From contig QMIW01000030.1 of NCBI GenBank assembly GCA_024434165.1, forward strand, positions 1 to 44,970: a stretch of DNA of 44,970 bases, read 5' to 3'. The stretch is from Chloroflexota bacterium. GTDB taxonomy: Bacteria; Chloroflexota; Anaerolineae; Anaerolineales; Villigracilaceae. Of the stretch, positions 7,542 to 36,750 are shown in pieces. Each line of letters begins with the position of its first letter. Position 1 is the first letter of the stretch. A program made the position numbers and the translations under genes. Under the pieces are notes generated by a model. The model saw nothing but the letters and a program-made list of their open reading frames with translations, had not been told where the DNA came from and did not search any database.

Positions 7542-10500
7542 TTACGCCCGCCACTCGCTGAGCGTTTCACCGAGTTTGGCGATCCGCTCGCGGAGCAGGA
7601 CGGCAATCACGCCCAGCATGAGCAGGATGATGCCCGTACAGCCGATGAGGAAGATCGAGCCGATGTCCTTCAGCGCGCTGTAGACCACCGTCACCACGCC
7701 CAGCACCACGAAGCCGATGGGGAAGAACGTCAGACTGCGCGAACGGACAATAATGCCGTACGTCAGCACCGCCAGCGATTGCAGGAAGAGCGCAAAGAAA
7801 TACAGCAGTTCGTTTTTGCCGACCATTTCGATGTAGGTCGTACCGAGCAGGACAAATTGCGAGAACATGCCCATGATGAACGCGCCCGTCCTGCCGCCCG
7901 CGCGCGTCAGCAGATAATGCTGAATCAACCCGAAGAGCGCCGTGCCAATCGAAAAGAACTGCGGTTCGGTCACATCCAGTTCGAAGAGGATGATGAAATA
8001 CGCCAGCAGGTACAAGCCGTTGGCGGGGAACGCCAGCCAGGCGCTGCGCTTTGCGTAGGCTTCGACCGCCCACAGCGTGGCGGCGGCTGCAACCGGCAGC
8101 GACGCATCCAACCCGCCGAGAATGGGTGCGCCTGCCGAAACAACGACGCCCAACCCGAGACCGCTCCGCATCAGCACGGCGTCCCAGCCTGCGGCGCGTC
8201 CGCGTTTTTGCAGGACGAAGCCCGCCGCGTAGTGGAAAGCGGCAGCGGCGATGACCGGATGAATCCACTGCGTTACGTCGAAGGAGCGGAAGAGGAACGC
8301 CGCAAACAGCGGCAGGGTCAAGGTAAAGGTGTAGAACAAATTCGGCTGACGGTAGAGCAGGCTCACGGTCAGGAAAAGAAGCGAATAGACGGCAAAGCCG
8401 GATGCGCCCACGGCGGCGTCCTTGTCAAAGAAGAGGAATCCGTAATTGGCGAGGGCGAGCGATCCGCCGGCGATGCGGACCGCCCAGTTGAGCGGGCGCG
8501 GGTTCGTGAAGGTCAGGTGAGCGAGCAGGTCGGCGAGGATCCACAGCAGGCTGTAGGCGAGCAGGTGAAAGGCGGGACACTGCACGTTGAAATCGCGCAG
8601 GATGAGAAACGCGCCAACGGTGAACAGGATGGGCGCGCCGGCTTCGAACCAGCCGTTTTTGCGAAGGTACATCTCGGCAATGAAGAGCAGTCCGATTGCC
8701 AGCGCATACCAGCCGCCGGTTTCTTCGAGAGCGATCAGCGCTGCAAACGCTGTGATGGCGCCGAGGACCAGGGCGCTGTTTCGGAGCATGAGCGACCAGC
8801 CCTCCCTCGCGCGAACTGCCATGCCCGCCAGGAAATATCCGATTGCCAGCGCGGTCAGGGTGGGGAGCCAGGCATCCACGCTGAAATATTCGAGTATGAA
8901 GATACTCGTGAGTGCAAGGCTTGCCGCAGGAACGTATCCTAAAAGGGGCAGGCGGTACGCCAGGGCGTAAACCGTGAACACGATGGTGTAAACCCCGCAG
9001 CAAATGGCGGCTTCTGATGCAGGAGCCAGCGCCGGGATGAGCACGAAGTTGACGCCCGTCAGCGCCGCGCCGATGCCGCGCACGATCGGGTTCAGCGGGC
9101 GCGGGTTCGTAAAGGTGAGATGGGCGAGCAGGTCGGCGAGGACCCACAACAGGCTGTAGGCGAGCAGGTGATAGTTCGTGGATGAAACGTCGAAGCCGCG
9201 CAGGATGAGGAATGCCCCCGCGGTGAATAAAATGGGCGCGCCGATTTCAAACCAACCGTTTTTGCGCAGGTACATTTCCACGGCAAAGAGCAAACCGGCT
9301 GCCAGCGCGTACCAGCCGCCGGTTTCCTTGAGGGCGATGAGCGCTGCAATCGAAACGATGGAACCGAGGATCAACGCGCTGTTGCGAAGCATGAATGCCC
9401 AGCCTTCCCTCGCGCGGATCCCCAGCCCGGCAAGCAGGTAGAGAACGGCGAGCGCCGTCAATGCCGGGAGCCAGGCGTCCATTTCAAGGGCGTCGAGCGC
9501 AAAGAGAATTGCAAGCGGCAGGGCGGCGGCTGGGATGTAGCCAAGCAGCGGTTTGGAGTACGCCAGCGCATAGACGGCAAAGAAGACGGCGTAGATTCCA
9601 TAACAGATTGCCGAACCGGTCGAATCGAATGGAAAGAGCAGGAAGAGCAGGTTGCAGGCGGCGAAGAGCGCGCCCGCGATGCGCGGCGGCAGACGCCATT
9701 CGGGGTCTGCCTGCCAATCCTTTTTCAGCAGAAGGTCGGGGAGCAGGAACAACAGACTCATGCCGAGCAGTTGATAGCCGAAGAAAACATCCAGCGCCTG
9801 CATGAAATCGAGCAGGAAAAAACTGAAATAGGCGGCGATGAAATTGAGCAGCGCCAGCGACCACAACCACCAGCGCAGGCGGAACGTGTGCAGGGCGGTG
9901 AAGAGCATTGCCGTGACGAGCGCGGCGAGCATCCCCAGCCAGGTCTCGAACACAATGCCAGCCATGAACGCCAGCGCCAGGCTGGGCATGGATGCCAGCA
10001 AAACGGGCAGGCTGAACGTTCGGGCGCGTTCGATTCTGTGCAGCGCTTCGCTGGCAGAAGCCAGCATGAATCCCCACCCGAAGAAGAGCATGGATGAACC
10101 GAGGCTTTCGAGATCGAAAGCGGCGGCGAGGAACCAGGGCATGGGAATGAGCGCTCCCGCCGCCAGCCAGGGGAAGGCAAAGAACGGTCGCAGCCCGTTC
10201 GAGAAAGTGTAGAAGATGCCCGCCAAACCCCACGTCAGGAAACCCGCCAGGTGCCAGAGATTCGGGTTGGATGGGTCGAATACATGGGCGCCAAAGATGG
10301 AAATCGAAACAACCAGCGCCGCGACCTGCAATGCCTGCGCGGCAAGGAAGAGCGGCAGGGCAAATTTCGCGTCCCGCCAGCGTGTGAGCAGGCTCGCGCC
10401 CGTCAGCCCGGCAAGGGCGGCGATGCCTTCCATGAGGATGTGGAATTCAGCCTGCGCGTCGAATACGCCTCCAGCCCGGTACATCGCAAGCGCAAGCGAG

Positions 10501-12125
10501 CCGAAGGCTGTGATGCTGAACAGGCGCGATTCATACAGCCATGTCCCGCCGCTCCAGATGACGGACATGATGAGGAAGACGATCACCCAATATCCAGCCG
10601 TCATCGGCTTGCCATACTCGAACGCGAACCGCAGGGATTGTTCGAGGCTGTTGGCGGTGATGACCAACAGGAAGGAAAAAACAATGAACAGTGCAAAACT
10701 TGGCTGGGGCAACCGCTTCTTGATGAGGACCGCCAGCCCGCCGAAGATGAATGTGCCGAGAATCAGAATCGGCAGGCGCAGTTCCGGCACAACCGCGCCC
10801 AGGATGGCGGCGGCGGCAATCACAAAGAACGCGCCGAGATAAAGATAAATCTTGATGCTGGCTTCGCTGGTCAGCGTTTGCAGGAGGGTGGGGCGCGGCT
10901 CGGGCGGCGTGACCGGCGTGGGGGCGGGCGCAGGAGTCGCTTTCGGCGCGGGCGCGGCTGGCTGGATGGGAGCAGGCTTGGGCGGAGTCTGAGGCGCGGC
11001 TTTGGGCTGGGGGGCAATGTCAAAATCGTAGCGCCGGCGGAGCACATCGCCGGTCTGGTTGTTGATCAAATTGCTCTTCACCCAGGCGTCAATTTCCCCC
11101 AGAATCAAATTGCGGACTCCCCAACTCAGCCGGTCGCCGGCGACCTGCCGGCGCACCGCGCGGTTGGCGGAGGTATCCAACGCGGCGAGCGCTTCAGCGC
11201 GGACCTCGGGGCTGCTGCCATGCAAACTGAGTTTTTCCAGCTGGCTGCGAATCGCTTCGCTGCTGTACGGCAGTGTTTTCATGGAAGCAATGGCTCGCAG
11301 GATTACGGCTTCGTCCGTGCTTTGCAGTCTCTGATGAATCTGCGCGACAATCTCTTGTGGCGATTGGGCGGCGTTCGCCGGGGTTTGCGCGTCTGTGCCG
11401 GCTGCGTTGATGGAGGGTTCGGCTCCCCGCAGGCGGTCCAGCGCAATCCGCGCATCCATGCGGATGTCCATGTTGTCGTCTTCACCGGCGCAAATTTCGA
11501 GTTCTCTCAATATTGCTTTTTCGAGGATGTCGTCGTCAATGCGGTCGAACACTGCGAGCTTTTCGATGGCGAGCAGCACCGTCACATCGTCGCCGCTTTG
11601 CAAGTCCTCCAGGATCTGACGCAGAATTTCCCTGGCTTGTTCGGGCGTGTACATGGTTTCCTCCATTTGGGCTGCGAGCGTTTCTTCCTGCTCCATTTCC
11701 ATTTTGATCTGTTTGAGTCCCGTTCGGCTTTGAGTTGCCCATAAAACGACCAGCACGATGACAGCCAGGCAGGAGAAGACTTCGGTGCCGCCAAGGACGG
11801 CAAGGAAAGCGCCTATCAACGCCACCGCCGTGCGGACGCCTGCGTAACCGAGCGCCTGCCTGCCATGTTTGCGGACGAATTCGCTGCCCTTGTAATTTAC
11901 ATACTGAAGGAGGAATAAATGCCAAAGCGCCGAACCGAGCACGGCTGTGACGGCGGTCAATGCCTCTGCGATTTCAAAACCACATGCCGGGCAGATTGCC
12001 TCGACTGCCGTGTACCCAAGTCCGCTCGACGCAAAGAAGAAAAGCGTGGGAACGGTCAACAACGGCGAGAGCTGCAGCCAGTTGTAAGCCGCTTTGGCGC
12101 GCTTTTCCTCGGTTGGTCTTTGCAT
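7542..12125 (-). CDS. Giant multi-membrane protein with HEAT-like region and duplicated membrane module (1527 aa)
   Basis: No named function is recognised. In order: an N-terminal membrane region (about residues 15-140) with CPACGFEIAEA in a loop; a helical region with HEAT-like repeats (about 155-345); a Pro/Ala linker (about 375-425); then about 1100 residues of consecutive hydrophobic segments. The start of this part (SEASIKIYLYLGAFFVIAAA) recalls the DUF2157/DUF2339 type. Within it, a module of 201 residues is repeated nearly exactly (about 815-1015 and 1016-1216), with motifs MLRNSAL, EMYLRKNGWFE, GAPILFT and HLTFTNPRPLN in both. A third, diverged copy follows (about 1217-1400: LMRSGLG, EAYAKRSAWLA). 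Such proteins may act as envelope scaffolds or polymer transporters, but this is speculation. It is monocistronic or paired with the VOC gene. Confidence 0.85.
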   Translation of the reverse strand: MQRPTEEKRAKAAYNWLQLSPLLTVPTLFFFASSGLGYTAVEAICPACGFEIAEALTAVTAVLGSALWHLFLLQYVNYKGSEFVRKHGRQALGYAGVRTAVALIGAFLAVLGGTEVFSCLAVIVLVVLWATQSRTGLKQIKMEMEQEETLAAQMEETMYTPEQAREILRQILEDLQSGDDVTVLLAIEKLAVFDRIDDDILEKAILRELEICAGEDDNMDIRMDARIALDRLRGAEPSINAAGTDAQTPANAAQSPQEIVAQIHQRLQSTDEAVILRAIASMKTLPYSSEAIRSQLEKLSLHGSSPEVRAEALAALDTSANRAVRRQVAGDRLSWGVRNLILGEIDAWVKSNLINNQTGDVLRRRYDFDIAPQPKAAPQTPPKPAPIQPAAPAPKATPAPAPTPVTPPEPRPTLLQTLTSEASIKIYLYLGAFFVIAAAAILGAVVPELRLPILILGTFIFGGLAVLIKKRLPQPSFALFIVFSFLLVITANSLEQSLRFAFEYGKPMTAGYWVIVFLIMSVIWSGGTWLYESRLFSITAFGSLALAMYRAGGVFDAQAEFHILMEGIAALAGLTGASLLTRWRDAKFALPLFLAAQALQVAALVVSISIFGAHVFDPSNPNLWHLAGFLTWGLAGIFYTFSNGLRPFFAFPWLAAGALIPMPWFLAAAFDLESLGSSMLFFGWGFMLASASEALHRIERARTFSLPVLLASMPSLALAFMAGIVFETWLGMLAALVTAMLFTALHTFRLRWWLWSLALLNFIAAYFSFFLLDFMQALDVFFGYQLLGMSLLFLLPDLLLKKDWQADPEWRLPPRIAGALFAACNLLFLLFPFDSTGSAICYGIYAVFFAVYALAYSKPLLGYIPAAALPLAILFALDALEMDAWLPALTALAVLYLLAGLGIRAREGWAFMLRNSALILGSIVSIAALIALKETGGWYALAAGLLFAVEMYLRKNGWFEIGAPILFTAGAFLILRGFDVSSTNYHLLAYSLLWVLADLLAHLTFTNPRPLNPIVRGIGAALTGVNFVLIPALAPASEAAICCGVYTIVFTVYALAYRLPLLGYVPAASLALTSIFILEYFSVDAWLPTLTALAIGYFLAGMAVRAREGWSLMLRNSALVLGAITAFAALIALEETGGWYALAIGLLFIAEMYLRKNGWFEAGAPILFTVGAFLILRDFNVQCPAFHLLAYSLLWILADLLAHLTFTNPRPLNWAVRIAGGSLALANYGFLFFDKDAAVGASGFAVYSLLFLTVSLLYRQPNLFYTFTLTLPLFAAFLFRSFDVTQWIHPVIAAAAFHYAAGFVLQKRGRAAGWDAVLMRSGLGLGVVVSAGAPILGGLDASLPVAAAATLWAVEAYAKRSAWLAFPANGLYLLAYFIILFELDVTEPQFFSIGTALFGLIQHYLLTRAGGRTGAFIMGMFSQFVLLGTTYIEMVGKNELLYFFALFLQSLAVLTYGIIVRSRSLTFFPIGFVVLGVVTVVYSALKDIGSIFLIGCTGIILLMLGVIAVLLRERIAKLGETLSEWRA
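8464..9669. repeat. Two tandem copies of a 603-bp unit inside the giant membrane protein gene
   Basis: Matching stretches sit exactly 603 bases apart: the block beginning AGCGGGCGCGGGTTCGT at 8491 recurs at 9094, and the TACGCC anchor at 8956 recurs at 9559. The offset equals 201 codons, so the frame is kept. DNA identity is high in the parts I compared by eye, so the duplication is recent or is kept alike by gene conversion. Outer limits are approximate. Confidence 0.88.
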
Positions 12126-12315: not shown

Positions 12316-12356
12316 AAAAGCAAGCCGCCCGGAGCGGACTTCGAGCGGCTTGCTTT
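12316..12356 (-). terminator. Intrinsic terminator after the cytoplasmic GH13 gene
   Basis: Reading the minus strand, AAAGCAAGCCGC pairs with GCGGCTTGCTTTT around a 16-base loop, ending in a short U-tract. It lies 30 bases past the stop at 12386 and closes the sugar operon. The rest of the 260-base gap up to the giant-protein gene (12126-12385) holds nothing else I can identify. Confidence 0.8.
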
Positions 12357-17758: not shown

Positions 17759-19006
17759 TTACTTGGTTGCGCCTTCGAAGGCGGCTTTGACCCAGTCGGC
17801 AGCCGGGGTTCCGGCATCGAAGACCTGGTCGGTACCGCAGAAGTTGCCCCAGTAGTTGCCCATGGCTTCCACCTGCGGGCGGAAGTAGGCGGTGGCGAAC
17901 GCGTCGAGCAGACCCTGGATGAGCGGGTCGGTCACTTCGACGGTGGTGTTCGCGGGAACGTGACCGGCTTCGTCCATCATCAACTGTTGGGCGGCGGTGT
18001 TGGTGAGGTAGAGCGCCACCTCGATGGCGGCTTCGGTATTCTCACTGTTCGGGTTGAAGTACCAGCCGTCCACGCCGAGGAGCGGGTTGGAAGGACCGCC
18101 CGGTCCGGCGGGAATCGGAGCCACGGCGAGTTTGTCGCCGAGAGCCTTGCGGTAGTCGCCCATTGCCCAGTTGCCGTTCGTGATCGCGGCGACGGAGCCT
18201 TCGGTGAAGGGCGCGAGACCGTCGCTGTCGTTGCGGGGCCAGCCGTTCTCAACGGAGATCTGGTACAGGTCGTTGAGGTAGGACATCGCATCCGCAACCT
18301 TGGCCTGGTTGGCTTCATCGGCGACGAAATTGAACTGGTCGTCGAAGATCTGACCGCCGAAGGAGCCGAAGAAGCCCCAGTGGTGGTAGCAGCCGAAGGA
18401 GATGGCGACCGGTGTGCCGCCTTCCATCAACGCCTTGAGGTCGTCGGTGGTGGCGGGCGCTTCGGGAAGCAGTTCAGTGTTGTACCAGAACGCAACAGCC
18501 TTCATGGACTCGGGGATGCCGTACATGCGGCCCTCGTACATCATGCCGCCCTGCGAGAGTTCGCTGTAATCGCCAAGTTTGCCGGCAACCAGATCGGTAA
18601 TGTCGGCGATGGTTCCAGAGCGGGCCTGACCGCCGAGGTTGTCGTTCGGGGCGATGAACATGTCGGGACCGCCGCCGGCAGCGACATCGGTGTCATACTT
18701 GTTGAAGATGTCGTTGAAAGGCACCTGGAGCACATTGATCTTGTACTGCGGGAGATCCACGGCGGCTTGTTCGAGCAGTTTCGCCAGGGCGATCTCTTCC
18801 GCAGAACCGGTGCCGTAGGCGTGCCAGAAGGTGATTTCAGTAACTTCGGCGGGCGCTTCTTCCGTAGCGGCGGGGGCTTCTTCCGTAGCGGCGGGCGCTT
18901 CCTCGGTGGCGGCGGGCGCTTCTTCGGTGGCAGGGGTGCCGCATGCGGCGAGCGCAAGTGACAGAATCACCAATACGCTCAGTAAAGCGAGCAAATTCTT
19001 TTTCAT
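17759..19006 (-). CDS. Maltodextrin-binding lipoprotein, MalE-like
   Basis: Extracellular solute-binding protein family 1, 415 residues. The signal peptide ends in LALAAC (Cys22). A linker of four tandem ATEEAPA heptapeptides follows, encoded by 21-bp DNA repeats at about 18848-18932. The mature domain begins EITFWHAYGTGSAEE and has GGPDMFIAPND, NGNWAMGDYR and GVDGWYFNPNSEN, common in maltose/maltodextrin-binding proteins. AAGGAG precedes the ATG. It is followed by its permease genes and preceded by the ATPase gene, so the full importer is encoded in a row. Confidence 0.92.
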   Translation of the reverse strand: MKKNLLALLSVLVILSLALAACGTPATEEAPAATEEAPAATEEAPAATEEAPAEVTEITFWHAYGTGSAEEIALAKLLEQAAVDLPQYKINVLQVPFNDIFNKYDTDVAAGGGPDMFIAPNDNLGGQARSGTIADITDLVAGKLGDYSELSQGGMMYEGRMYGIPESMKAVAFWYNTELLPEAPATTDDLKALMEGGTPVAISFGCYHHWGFFGSFGGQIFDDQFNFVADEANQAKVADAMSYLNDLYQISVENGWPRNDSDGLAPFTEGSVAAITNGNWAMGDYRKALGDKLAVAPIPAGPGGPSNPLLGVDGWYFNPNSENTEAAIEVALYLTNTAAQQLMMDEAGHVPANTTVEVTDPLIQGLLDAFATAYFRPQVEAMGNYWGNFCGTDQVFDAGTPAADWVKAAFEGATK

Positions 19007-30178: not shown

Positions 30179-32824
30179 TTATTTTTCAGGTTCGATCTCG
30201 AAGAAGTTGAAGGGAGTCTCCAAAGCCGGGATGGGCGCGAACGATGGAATGTCTCCCATATCCACCTTGATGGTTGGCTGGCTGCTGTCGGTCCAGTCTG
30301 CGCTCCAACTGAAGGGACCGCCGGTGATATAGCCGCAGCCAGGGATGAAGAAGCTCCGAAAGCCAACGGATCCACTCGCTCGTTTCGGCGTGGGAAAGGT
30401 GCCGTTGGCATAGTAACTGCCGGTAAAGGAGAACGTCCTGCCTTGTAATGCGATCTGGGGGTCACGAGTGATCGTATATCCGCCGCATCCATAGACGTAG
30501 ATATTGACCGCAAAATTATCTACCTTGGGAGCGCCTTTGGTCACATAGAACTGAAGCGCCCTGCCGTTCCACCGGCCAGCTTTGGCAGCGGAAACCTTGA
30601 AAGGCAGGTTGGGGCTGTACTCTTTCCATTCTCCATTGACCTCAGCGCGCACCTTCCACGTGTAGTTGTTGCCGAACGCCAGCACCGTGGTGGGAGTATT
30701 GGAACAGGCGGCGGTATTACATACGCTGGCGGCGACAGTTTTGGTGTAGACGATTTTGGTACCTCTCTTGAGTTGGTATTGATACCGTGTTGCGCCGTTG
30801 ATATTTGACCACTTGAAGGTGGGAGTGGTATCAGTCGTGACCCCTGTGGGAGAGAGGGCGACAGGAATGTTGGAAAGGGTATAGATCTGTCCACTGGTGA
30901 AGTCGCCATTGCCGGCTCCGGTCCCGCCGAGTGGATTGTTCAGCGAATCCAGGATGCTGTCATCGTCCACGACATCGAGGCGGATGGTTGCGCCTTCGCT
31001 CCAGGTGCCGGTGCTAACCGTGACGGTATAGGTATCGCCGGAACCGCTGACCCCTGTGATGGCGGCATCGGTCACGCCGGTGGTGGTGAGGGCAAAGTCG
31101 CTGAAAGGCTCAGTGAGGTCAACGCCCGTCACAGCATCGGTGAAAGTGACTTCAAAATTCACGCTTGATGCATTCGTGGGATTGGAATCCAGGCGGTTTA
31201 TGGATGCGACTGAAGTAACGCTTAATGAGTATGCTTGTCCACTGGTAAAGTCGCCGTTGCCGGTTCTTGCCCCGCCGAGTGGATTATTGGATTGATCCAG
31301 AATGCTGTCATCGTCCACGACGTCGAGGCGGATGGTCGCGCCTTCGCTCCAGGTGTCGGTGCTAACCGTGACGGTATAGGTATCGCCGGAGCCGCTGACC
31401 CCCGTGATGGCAGCACCGGTCACGCCGGTGGTGGTGAGGATAAAGTCGCTGAAGGGTTCGGTGAGGTCAACGCCCGTCACAGCTTCGGAAAATACGACTT
31501 CGAAGTCCAAGCTTGCCGCATGAATGGGGCTGGGATCAAGGCGGTTAATGGATTTCACCACGGTGACATATCCTTCAAATGCACCAATATCACAAGCGCT
31601 TCCTGCTGGGCGGGCGATTCCACGCTGGTCGGTTGCCAGACAGGCGCCGCCGCCGCTGCCCGGTACAGCAGGGTTGCCGGCATCCAGCGCCGGGCTGCCA
31701 GAGGTTAGAGCGTGCGTGAACGTTGGTCCACCGTTATCTTGCAGCGGGGTCAACTTGGGGTCAATTGGATTTGCGCTTGTTCCCACTTGATCTCCGACGG
31801 CCGGAGTGAATAAACAATATGTCCCATTCCCAATCAGGTTGTAACCCTGGCTGGTAACACTACCGTTGTATGATGAGTTTTTATAACAATCGCCGCCAGC
31901 GCCATTCCCAGCGATGACCGTATTTTGCAGGATTAAATTGCCAGCCGTAATTAAAACGCCGCGAGATTCGTTCTTTGTAATGGTACTGTTATTAAGAATA
32001 ACAGTACCAGTGAATGTATAAATACCACTGCCATCTTTGCCTGTGTTGCCGCTTACAGTGCTGTTATTTAAAGTGACTGTACCATGGACAAATATCCCAC
32101 TGCCCTGAAAACTGCCGAGAAGTTTATTGTTGCCTATCGTGCTATTGTTTATGGTAGCCGTACCATAACTGGAGATGCCGCCACCTCCTCCGCCGCCAGA
32201 ACAACAAGGGTTGCCACCGCTGTTCCCGCTGATGGTAGTGTTGTTAATGGTCAGGGTTCCAGAGTTATAGACTCCGCCGCCCATCCATTCGCTAACATTG
32301 CCGCTGACGATGCTATTGTTCAATGTCAGGGTGCCTGAATAATTATAGATTCCTCCGCCTTGATTTCTATGGAACCCATTCTGAATTGTAAAATATTCCA
32401 CGGTGACTGTGACGGCAGTATTTATCGCAATCCCCCTCCTCACCCCTCCGCCGTCAATCGTTGACCTTCCCTCCTGCGTCGTAAACGTCTCATCCCAGCC
32501 GCCGGAGAGGGTGATGCTTTTGTTGATCAACACCACCTCGTTGCCGGAGGCAACGGTGTAGGTGCCAACCGCAACCTTGATCGTATCGCCGGAAGCGGCT
32601 TGGCTGATTGCGTGGTTGATCGTGAGACAGGGCGTTTCCGGTGCGGTGCAGGCGTTGGGTCCATCATCCGAACCCAGCGCGCTGACATAACGGGTGACCT
32701 CGCCTTCCGCATTGACCTGTGCAGAGACCGGCTGGACCAGCGCCAGTGAAAGCGCCATGCTGAAAACCAGAATGAAATTGGTCAGGGCGAAACGCGCCTG
32801 ACGGGAATGAAATTTGAGATTCAT
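30179..32824 (-). CDS. Large secreted protein with beta-helix (choice-of-anchor Q) and tandem Ig-like repeats
   Basis: An 881-residue exported protein. After a signal peptide (ending near VQPVSAQ) there is RYVSALGSDDGPNACTAPE and a parallel beta-helix region with many GGGIYN, LNNS and ISGN rungs (about 60-345). Then comes the choice-of-anchor Q block (LTPLQDNGGPTFTHAL, DQRGIARPAGSACDIGAFE). Two nearly identical Ig-like repeats of 116 residues follow (INRLDPSP/INRLDSNP, TEPFSDF, VSGSGDTYTVTVST). A fibronectin-like segment (TPTFKWSNINGATRYQYQL) and a Cys-containing C-terminal domain end it. Probably a surface or extracellular carbohydrate-binding or adhesion protein. The frame opens at 32866, but ATG 32824 with GGAGG upstream gives the signal peptide. 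Confidence 0.88.
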   Translation of the reverse strand: MNLKFHSRQARFALTNFILVFSMALSLALVQPVSAQVNAEGEVTRYVSALGSDDGPNACTAPETPCLTINHAISQAASGDTIKVAVGTYTVASGNEVVLINKSITLSGGWDETFTTQEGRSTIDGGGVRRGIAINTAVTVTVEYFTIQNGFHRNQGGGIYNYSGTLTLNNSIVSGNVSEWMGGGVYNSGTLTINNTTISGNSGGNPCCSGGGGGGGISSYGTATINNSTIGNNKLLGSFQGSGIFVHGTVTLNNSTVSGNTGKDGSGIYTFTGTVILNNSTITKNESRGVLITAGNLILQNTVIAGNGAGGDCYKNSSYNGSVTSQGYNLIGNGTYCLFTPAVGDQVGTSANPIDPKLTPLQDNGGPTFTHALTSGSPALDAGNPAVPGSGGGACLATDQRGIARPAGSACDIGAFEGYVTVVKSINRLDPSPIHAASLDFEVVFSEAVTGVDLTEPFSDFILTTTGVTGAAITGVSGSGDTYTVTVSTDTWSEGATIRLDVVDDDSILDQSNNPLGGARTGNGDFTSGQAYSLSVTSVASINRLDSNPTNASSVNFEVTFTDAVTGVDLTEPFSDFALTTTGVTDAAITGVSGSGDTYTVTVSTGTWSEGATIRLDVVDDDSILDSLNNPLGGTGAGNGDFTSGQIYTLSNIPVALSPTGVTTDTTPTFKWSNINGATRYQYQLKRGTKIVYTKTVAASVCNTAACSNTPTTVLAFGNNYTWKVRAEVNGEWKEYSPNLPFKVSAAKAGRWNGRALQFYVTKGAPKVDNFAVNIYVYGCGGYTITRDPQIALQGRTFSFTGSYYANGTFPTPKRASGSVGFRSFFIPGCGYITGGPFSWSADWTDSSQPTIKVDMGDIPSFAPIPALETPFNFFEIEPEK
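30891..31560. repeat. Tandem 348-bp coding repeat (two Ig-like domains)
   Basis: CCACTGGTGAAGTCGCC at 30891 recurs as CCACTGGTAAAGTCGCC at 31239, an offset of 348 bases (116 codons). Most of both copies match at the DNA level, pointing to a recent domain duplication. Confidence 0.85.
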
Positions 32825-32940
32825 GCAATACCTCCTTGTGTTATGAATGACGTTGAATTCCAGCATGGGCTGGAATTTTGATAAGATTTGGGACAGGGCG
32901 GGTACTTGTGAACACTTCCCTCCTGAAACGACTTGTGAAG

Positions 32941-33033: not shown

Positions 33034-33068
33034 TCACTGATCACTAATCACTGACAACTGATCACTGA
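33034..33068. repeat. Heptamer repeat array, 5 units, touching the pyrG stop
   Basis: Consecutive 7-mers TCACTGA, TCACTAA, TCACTGA, CAACTGA, TCACTGA end two bases before the pyrG stop codon. Confidence 0.85.
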
Positions 33069-33069
33069 C

Positions 33070-34677
<1,608 letters not shown>

Positions 34678-35348: not shown

Positions 35349-35960
35349 ATGCTCAAGGGATTGTTGATTCTTCTTCTGCTGTTTCAGGATTCCCCGCCTG
35401 CCCTCACCTCCCCGCAGCCCAATGCAGTTTTGCGCGGACAGGTGGAGATTCAAGGCAGGATGGACGTCCCGAATTTTGCCTCTGCGGAGCTGGCTTTCAC
35501 CTTCGATGCAGACGCCTCCGACCCCGGCGCGAGCTGGTTCGTCATCCAAACCTTTCCCCAGCCGACGGCGGGTCCCTCCCTTGCCGTATGGGATACCGCC
35601 TCCGTCACCGACGGCGACTACGCCCTGCGCCTGCGCGCCTTCCTCCAGGATGGCGCGTTCCAGGACGCCCTCATCACCGGCTTGAAAATCCGCAACGACG
35701 AACCGCCGCCCACGATCACGCCCACCCAGACGGAACCGGTCTTCGATTTCCAGCCGCTCAACCAAACCCCTGGTGCGCCCGCCCCGCTCGAACAGACGCC
35801 GATCCCGGCTGTCGTCTTCCTTCCCACCTCCACGCCTTTGCCGCCCAACCCCGCCTCATTGACTGTCGCTTCCATTCTCTCCATCTTCGGCAAAAGCGCT
35901 TTCGCCGTCCTCATCCTCTTCGCTTTTTTCTCCCTCCTCCTCCGCCTGCAGAAGAATTGA
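35349..35960 (+). CDS. Exported, C-terminally membrane-anchored protein of unknown function
   Basis: The 203-residue product has a short N-terminal signal (MLKGLLILLLLF), an Ig-like domain (about 18-115: SPQPNAVLRGQVEIQG, SAELAFTFD, GDYALRLRAFLQDG), a Thr/Pro-rich spacer (about 116-165) and one C-terminal membrane segment (FAVLILFAFFSLLL) with a basic end. The topology puts the Ig-like domain outside. I do not recognise a family name. The next gene, pth, is separated by a heptamer array. Confidence 0.75.
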   Translation: MLKGLLILLLLFQDSPPALTSPQPNAVLRGQVEIQGRMDVPNFASAELAFTFDADASDPGASWFVIQTFPQPTAGPSLAVWDTASVTDGDYALRLRAFLQDGAFQDALITGLKIRNDEPPPTITPTQTEPVFDFQPLNQTPGAPAPLEQTPIPAVVFLPTSTPLPPNPASLTVASILSIFGKSAFAVLILFAFFSLLLRLQKN

Positions 35961-36072
35961 CCAATCGCCATTCCCCAATTACCCAATTACCAATACCCAA
36001 TTACCCCTCACACCCGAAACCTTCAACCTTCAACTTTCAACCTGCCACCTTCAACCTGCCACCTGGAACCTG
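35961..36072. repeat. Heptamer repeat array filling the gap before pth
   Basis: Almost the whole gap reads as degenerate 7-mers: CCAATCG, CCATTCC, CCAATTA, CCCAATT, ACCAATA, CCCAATT, ACCCCTC, then CAACCTT, CAACTTT, CAACCTG, CCACCTT, CAACCTG, CCACCTG, GAACCTG. It ends four bases before the pth start, leaving no ordinary ribosome-binding site. Confidence 0.88.
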
Positions 36073-36658: not shown

Positions 36659-36750
36659 ATTGTGGGGAATAGTGAATGGGTGGAGAGTTTTCCCTATTCA
36701 CCGTTCCCTATCCCCTATTCACTATCCCCTATTCACCGTTCCTATTCACA
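36646..36750. repeat. Heptamer repeat array with foldback, between pth and mfd
   Basis: The right half reads in 7-mers CCCTATT, CACCGTT, CCCTATC, CCCTATT, CACTATC, CCCTATT, CACCGTT, CCTATTC. The left half (GGGAATAG, GGGGAATAGTGAATGGG) is roughly the reverse complement, so the array can fold into a hairpin. It starts at the pth stop and ends six bases before mfd. Confidence 0.85.

Follow-up and report, generated by a model that had tools for sequence, protein, structure and literature searches.

The window considered here is a stretch of 44,970 nucleotides (contig QMIW01000030.1, positions 1 to 44,970) from an Anaerolineales bacterium of the Villigracilaceae. On its minus strand, positions 7542..12125 hold an open reading frame encoding a giant membrane protein of 1,527 amino acids, with an AAAGGA stretch located 5' of the ATG. 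With the whole protein as query, matches were obtained in 33 of 61 genomes, and with the second of its repeated modules (module 2) in 72 of the 150 genomes of the family, the window's own genome being counted in both cases.

The gene can be divided into several regions, all on the minus strand and given here from the N-terminus onwards. Residues 1-145 (11691..12125) form an N-terminal membrane domain, which was delineated with an HMM of relatives, is missing from many relatives, and shows a weak match to Pfam DUF4870 below the cut-off (15 bits vs 25). This is followed by a HEAT-like helical domain, predicted to be cytoplasmic (approximately residues 179-345, 11091..11591; 173 bits with an HMM of relatives), and by a Pro-rich linker that was read from the sequence (approximately residues 372-411, 10893..11012). 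Then come a fixed membrane part, TMa and TMb, defined by HMM matches in relatives (residues 412-812, 9690..10892), middle module 1 (residues 813-1013, 9087..9689), middle module 2 (residues 1014-1214, 8484..9086), a last, fixed module that has its own clade in the module tree (residues 1215-1415, 7881..8483), and a C-terminal tail (residues 1416-1527, 7545..7880). A preliminary description of this DNA had listed a HEAT-like region, a Pro-rich linker and about 1,100 membrane residues; all three are present, but the HEAT assignment stays below the Pfam cut-off. In this segment HEAT_2 scores 18.0 of the 27.7 bits required and is outranked by NUP160_helical (21 of 27.5 bits); a distant relative (G047) exceeds the cut-offs of both HEAT_2 (29.6 vs 27.7 bits) and HEAT. 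The giant polytopic protein consists of a fixed start (HEAT-like domain, linker and about 400 membrane residues), 0-3 variable modules of about 201 residues each, alike among themselves, and a fixed end made of the last module and the tail.

Pfam searches with the whole window protein returned only sub-threshold matches (HEAT_2, NUP160_helical and Adaptin_N), Pfam and NCBIfam gave no match to an enzyme, transporter or channel family, and the family profile reached a best E-value of 0.63 against solved structures. The similarity to flippases or polymerases that had been suggested earlier finds no sequence support in the window protein.

The surroundings of the gene are partly conserved. Of the 56 loci with enough flanking sequence, 43 have a GH13 gene on the same strand no more than 600 nt upstream, and 28 of 49 loci have a SIR2 gene on the opposite strand no more than 2,500 nt downstream. 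Together with the sugar-type ABC genes found further upstream in the window, the GH13 gene would be compatible with movement of an envelope or storage glycan by a transporter, flippase or export channel whose modules act as transport units. We consider this reading unlikely: besides the missing transporter family match, a terminator-like hairpin parts the GH13 gene from the giant gene in 29 of 42 loci, against a mean of 1.2 and a maximum of 4 after shuffling. In the window, the corresponding hairpin with its T-run (12317..12356, minus strand; -27.4 kcal/mol, z -5.4) is likely an intrinsic terminator; a generic terminator scan of the region, with 2 found where 1.1 were expected, was not convincing on its own. 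The giant gene is probably its own transcription unit. An operon with the amylases is unlikely, as the terminator-like hairpin intervenes, and the amylase link, more likely positional than operonic, was given little weight for function because of the terminators between the genes.

Age of the repeated modules

The open reading frame contains a direct repeat, in frame, with a start-to-start distance of exactly 603 nt. At this offset the best 300-nt self-match reaches 79.7% identity, compared with no more than 44% when the codons of the gene were shuffled 200 times, and the longest exact run common to both copies is 22 nt. A third, diverged copy (7881..8483) is best matched at 32% over 100 aa at an offset of 402 aa, and is also scored by a module HMM that was itself built from these three copies. 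Self-match and module scoring thus confirm the in-frame 603-bp tandem repeat with a diverged third module reported in the preliminary description, whose interval (8464-9669) does span 2 x 603 nt but is shifted by 20 nt relative to the module boundaries chosen here. The two modules had also been called almost identical, which does not hold: across the whole module they share 67.5% DNA identity, which climbs from 43% at its beginning to 88% at its end, and the best 600-nt DNA self-identity of the gene is 68.3%. At the protein level, the first halves are 49% identical and the second halves 80%. The second halves are also 76-78% identical to modules of several other species, and their high identity in part reflects general conservation.

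The closest genome found (G017), a separate genome made up of two contigs, carries both modules. Orthologues in the two genomes are 88% (module 1) and 90% (module 2) identical, whereas the paralogues within one genome share 67.5% in the window and 69.7% in G017. Between orthologous segments of the two genomes, dS ranges from 0.06 to 0.48; between modules 1 and 2, the second half gives 0.75 for the window and 0.71 for G017, and dS of the first half is saturated in the window and 1.05 in G017. Because each G017 copy is closer to its counterpart than to its neighbour, the duplication is older than the split between the two genomes, and the orthologue/paralogue comparison and dS together rule out the recent event that had been proposed for the window. 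The common ancestor of the second halves is younger than that of the first halves, a mosaic for which gene conversion or a second, offset duplication may be responsible.

The preliminary description had further raised the concern of an assembly artefact, with one module collapsed or doubled, and the genome is indeed a draft in 173 contigs. The probability of such an artefact is negligible: the copies differ at about one third of positions, the separate genome G017 has the same two-module layout with both copies, and, in other species, a genome in 4 contigs (G032) has two modules and two single-contig genomes (G021 and G026) have one each.

Module number across the family

Relatives were split by profile searches into the fixed start (TMa, TMb), middle modules, last module and tail, and counting required that TMa, TMb, last module and tail all be detected in a gene, so that these parts are fixed by selection. 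Of the 72 genomes with a module match, 69 were analysed (G375, G384 and G400 were left out), and the addition of G297, from another family of the class, brought the total to 70. Broken, frame-shifted or contig-cut genes were dropped (G017, G015, G018, G006, G002, G028 and G369), leaving 63 genes, 62 of which come from the window's Anaerolineales family; pieces of some of the dropped genes remain in the module tree and in the half-identity and loop-charge rows. Three of these loci, L051 (G015), L052 (G018) and L025 (G006), have the giant gene broken up into several reading frames, which suggests decay or sequence errors.

Middle modules number 0 in 6 genes, 1 in 33, 2 in 17 and 3 in 7. The distance from TMb to the last module follows the same steps, with 0-13, 199-218, 401-411 and 607-651 residues in these 6, 33, 17 and 7 genes, respectively, and the window gene, with 402 residues, falls in the two-module class. 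The longest distance, 651 residues, belongs to G169, which has about 40 extra residues and a first module that was split in two by the profile, and which was counted as having three modules. On a tree of the fixed parts, module number changes at least 19 times (20 with weak branches collapsed). The preliminary description, which had called for a comparison of module number among homologues, is upheld by these stepped counts and repeated changes in its view that the protein grows by whole modules. Shuffled labels gave a mean of 26.7 changes, and never fewer than 21 in 1,000 shuffles; since the observed changes are fewer, module number is inherited but labile. With one genome per species, the same count was found in 7 of 7 pairs at a fixed-part identity of at least 80%, in 33 of 36 at 70-80% and in 103 of 206 at 60-70%, and module number looks stable over short times. 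No description of a variable module number in this protein family was found in the open-licence literature searched.

The module tree, with 63 rows, groups the last modules (24 rows) in a single clade with support 100/100. Another clade unites the middle modules of G012 and G024; in it both modules of G024 are sisters, as are two of the three in G012. In G012, G024 and G169, adjacent copies within a gene resemble each other more than they do those of any other genome, for both halves; in G315 such closeness was seen for one half of two pairs. The best 600-nt DNA self-identity is 93% in G169 (offset 639), 84.5% in G012, 77.5% in G024 and 76.2% in G315, and the truly recent duplication is that of G169, a relative, and not that of the window gene. 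The most diverged intragenic pair noted, in G324, shares about 21-28% identity in protein, and the family thereby offers age-graded intragenic duplications from the 93% DNA identity of G169 down to this level. Modules are gained through in-frame tandem duplication, gains and losses not being told apart here. In four close pairs, dN/dS is at most 0.51 in every segment, this highest value belonging to one HEAT segment.

Predicted module anatomy

We infer that each module probably comprises eight membrane helices, with both ends inside. A first structure prediction based on four sequences (mean pLDDT 39.5) placed eight helices in each of three modules and an estimated 42 or so membrane-length helices in residues 412-1527; a second, based on ten modules (mean pLDDT 53.7), had seven helices, not eight, in one module, and a Foldseek search with it returned nothing at E <= 0.001 (best E 3.1). 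Loop charges were counted in 93 middle and 67 last modules. Lysine and arginine number 1.42-2.84 per loop in loops 2-3, 4-5, 6-7 and 8-1, as against 0.24-1.14 in loops 1-2, 3-4, 5-6 and 7-8, a pattern in keeping with eight helices per module and with the predicted placing of both ends inside. Acidic residues alternate less cleanly, which counts against the proposed topology: in loop 6-7 of middle modules, D+E (2.19) exceeds K+R (1.71). An even helix count would let modules come or go without inverting the rest of the protein.

Profile comparisons indicate an internal likeness within modules. In the middle module, the two halves can be aligned with each other in register (P 1.4e-4, probability 53%); its second half also matches the opening half of the last module (P 2.7e-5, 75%), and the two halves of the last module resemble each other more weakly (P 9.1e-4, 23%). 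Each module is probably built from two similar four-helix halves, and these comparisons suggest an ancestral unit of four helices and 100 residues. As whole stretches, TMa and TMb were not supported as further module copies by profile comparison; the end of TMb gave one weak hint of likeness to the second half of the module (P 3.4e-5), and the tail had no significant match to module halves.

Residues common to both module types include W73, W97, S104 and E138. Of these, E138 occurs in 96% of the middle modules and in 99% of the last ones, and H186 is present in 67 of 67 last modules. Such strongly conserved polar residues would also fit a specific transporter, and in this respect they favour the glycan transporter considered above and speak against the lipid-handling array proposed below. 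Against this reading of the protein as a transporter, such proteins are not known to accept 0-3 additional eight-helix units.

Distant relatives and possible function

By its membrane region, the protein could be related to SCO7613-like giants. NCBIfam SCO7613_CTERM (NF047321) matches residues 1346-1506 of the window protein, covering the end of the last module and part of the tail, at 22.7 bits, under the curated cut-off of 45; the best family member seen (G206) reaches 42.0 bits. Of 22 relatives, 13 match the SCO7613 C-terminal domain at E <= 0.01, the lowest E-value being 6.7e-8. Two Pfam families, TgpA_N (3.5e-4) and CBP_BcsF (0.092), appeared at E <= 0.1 in one of 22 relatives each; TgpA_N is the membrane domain of an enzyme family, and this single match weighs against a lipid-handling array. 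A family profile, built from 33 one-module relatives, was compared with the SCO7613-like proteins of G019 and G036 (same genus) and of G039 and G041 (same order), giving a probability of 98.3% (P 1.5e-14, 722 columns), and with a second SCO7613-like set from the class (G188, G098, G176 and G122), giving 79.3%; the control values with two unrelated membrane proteins of the window, used as single sequences, were 0.1-0.2%. At the level of profiles, the protein is thus a distant relative of the SCO7613-like giants, with homology in the membrane region, and an Anaerolineales protein is now linked to these poorly understood proteins. The two kinds differ in their beginnings. SCO7613-like giants of G039, G098, G176, G188 and G195 start with a CxxC motif (zinc-ribbon-like by eye, with no Pfam match), two of the five being without any Pfam match, whereas in the window protein a membrane domain and then a HEAT-like domain come first. 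Also unlike these giants, the window family has clean 201-residue modules in varying number.

SCO7613 itself has been proposed as a PHA synthase in Streptomyces, and a role of the present protein in polymer storage might be considered by comparison. Deletion of SCO7613 is reported to have lowered PHA by 41.2% in a spectrophotometric assay and was complemented, but the drop was smaller by gas chromatography (124 to 104 mg/L), and the authors, who could identify no catalytic triad in SCO7613, consider an indirect effect (PMC8313934). In the window protein, no PHA synthase or alpha-beta hydrolase domain was matched in Pfam or NCBIfam at E <= 1, and the SCO7613_CTERM similarity lies below the curated cut-off. 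A polymer-storage factor is accordingly a very improbable explanation.

Two loci, L049 (G019) and L050 (G036), combine both architectures. Their heads are of the window type, with 138 and 141 bits for the membrane domain and 134 and 147 bits for the HEAT-like domain, and their membrane part is much longer, SCO7613-like, and 47-48% identical over about 900 residues to the CxxC-start protein of G039. When the neighbours of relatives were compared with the window's own genes, SIR2 was found in common in G019 and GH13 in G036. The membrane array was likely exchanged behind a constant head, the linker being the likely point of exchange. That the HEAT-like domain is conserved along with the membrane part, and is retained in these two loci where the membrane part differs, would suit an envelope-stress sensor or scaffold, in which the array senses the state of the membrane and the HEAT-like domain signals to cytoplasmic partners. 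Multi-helix sensory domains have been described for LiaI/LiaF, and the DUF2157 of such envelope-stress proteins is a four-helix unit, as each module half probably is (PMC11237479). However, DUF2157 was not matched in Pfam by the window protein at E <= 1, and no obvious signalling partner was seen among the scanned neighbour genes of the window, so that a sensor or scaffold is not a very likely reading.

By architecture, the most similar characterised kind among those met is, by analogy, Arc3A of the DUF2339 family. Arc3A is reported to have 35 predicted helices, with a helix number varying in the family, and to prevent the accumulation of lysophospholipids, which the authors suggest its helices may sequester (PMC8926400); a later study confirmed that Arc3A protects against lipase effectors (PMC12663445). 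The likeness lies in a massive polytopic protein of varying helix number, and would be one of working. DUF2339 (PF10101) gave no Pfam match in the window protein at E <= 1 and none in its own genome, and direct membership is not supported by the profile comparison of the family with seven Chloroflexota DUF2339 genes (4.5%). Among 61 genomes belonging to the window's family, none has a DUF2339 gene over the Pfam cut-off, although such a gene is present in 8 of the 151 genomes drawn from across the phylum; at L184 (G330), a single sub-threshold match of 25.7 bits is interrupted by a stop. DUF2339 is matched by short stretches of the SCO7613-like sets (62 columns at 87.1% and 37 at 77.9%, with DUF2339 controls at 0.1%), a hint of a very remote link to DUF2339, short and indirect, by way of these sets.

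Taken as a whole, the observations are best explained by a modular membrane array that handles lipids, to which we give a probability of about 35%. Counting against it, module 2 as query had matches in no more than 72 of the 150 family genomes. That this membrane-embedded helix array works like Arc3A is a tentative proposal, the lipid role drawing on analogy and on the short hint obtained through the SCO7613-like giants. The array would provide a lipid-binding surface or reservoir within the membrane and would take up or pass on abnormal lipids such as lysophospholipids, while the HEAT-like domain would serve as a cytoplasmic docking site. Since genes without a middle module keep the conserved core, more modules would bring more capacity and not a new activity. 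It is more doubtful that the protein is a device of adjustable capacity, a solenoid whose length is set by eight-helix cassettes, with the linker as the swap point of the array and module number tuning the lipid held; if true, module number would set how much lipid, or which lipid, the protein holds. Membrane protein families generally conserve the number of helices among their members. Here, cassettes of probably eight helices are gained and lost between fixed ends and in a constant frame, providing a natural series for the role of extra helices.

Tandem repeats were also observed elsewhere in the window. A 348-bp repeat of 1.9 copies (30888-31553; 85% matches) lies inside an open reading frame of 895 residues (30179-32866, minus strand), and short tandem repeats with periods of 7-22 bp occur at 33034-33074, 35955-36072 and 36692-36736. 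In the gene of a solute-binding protein, a 21-bp repeat of 3.8 copies (18847-18925) encodes a repeated Ala/Glu/Pro/Thr-rich stretch after a signal-like start.
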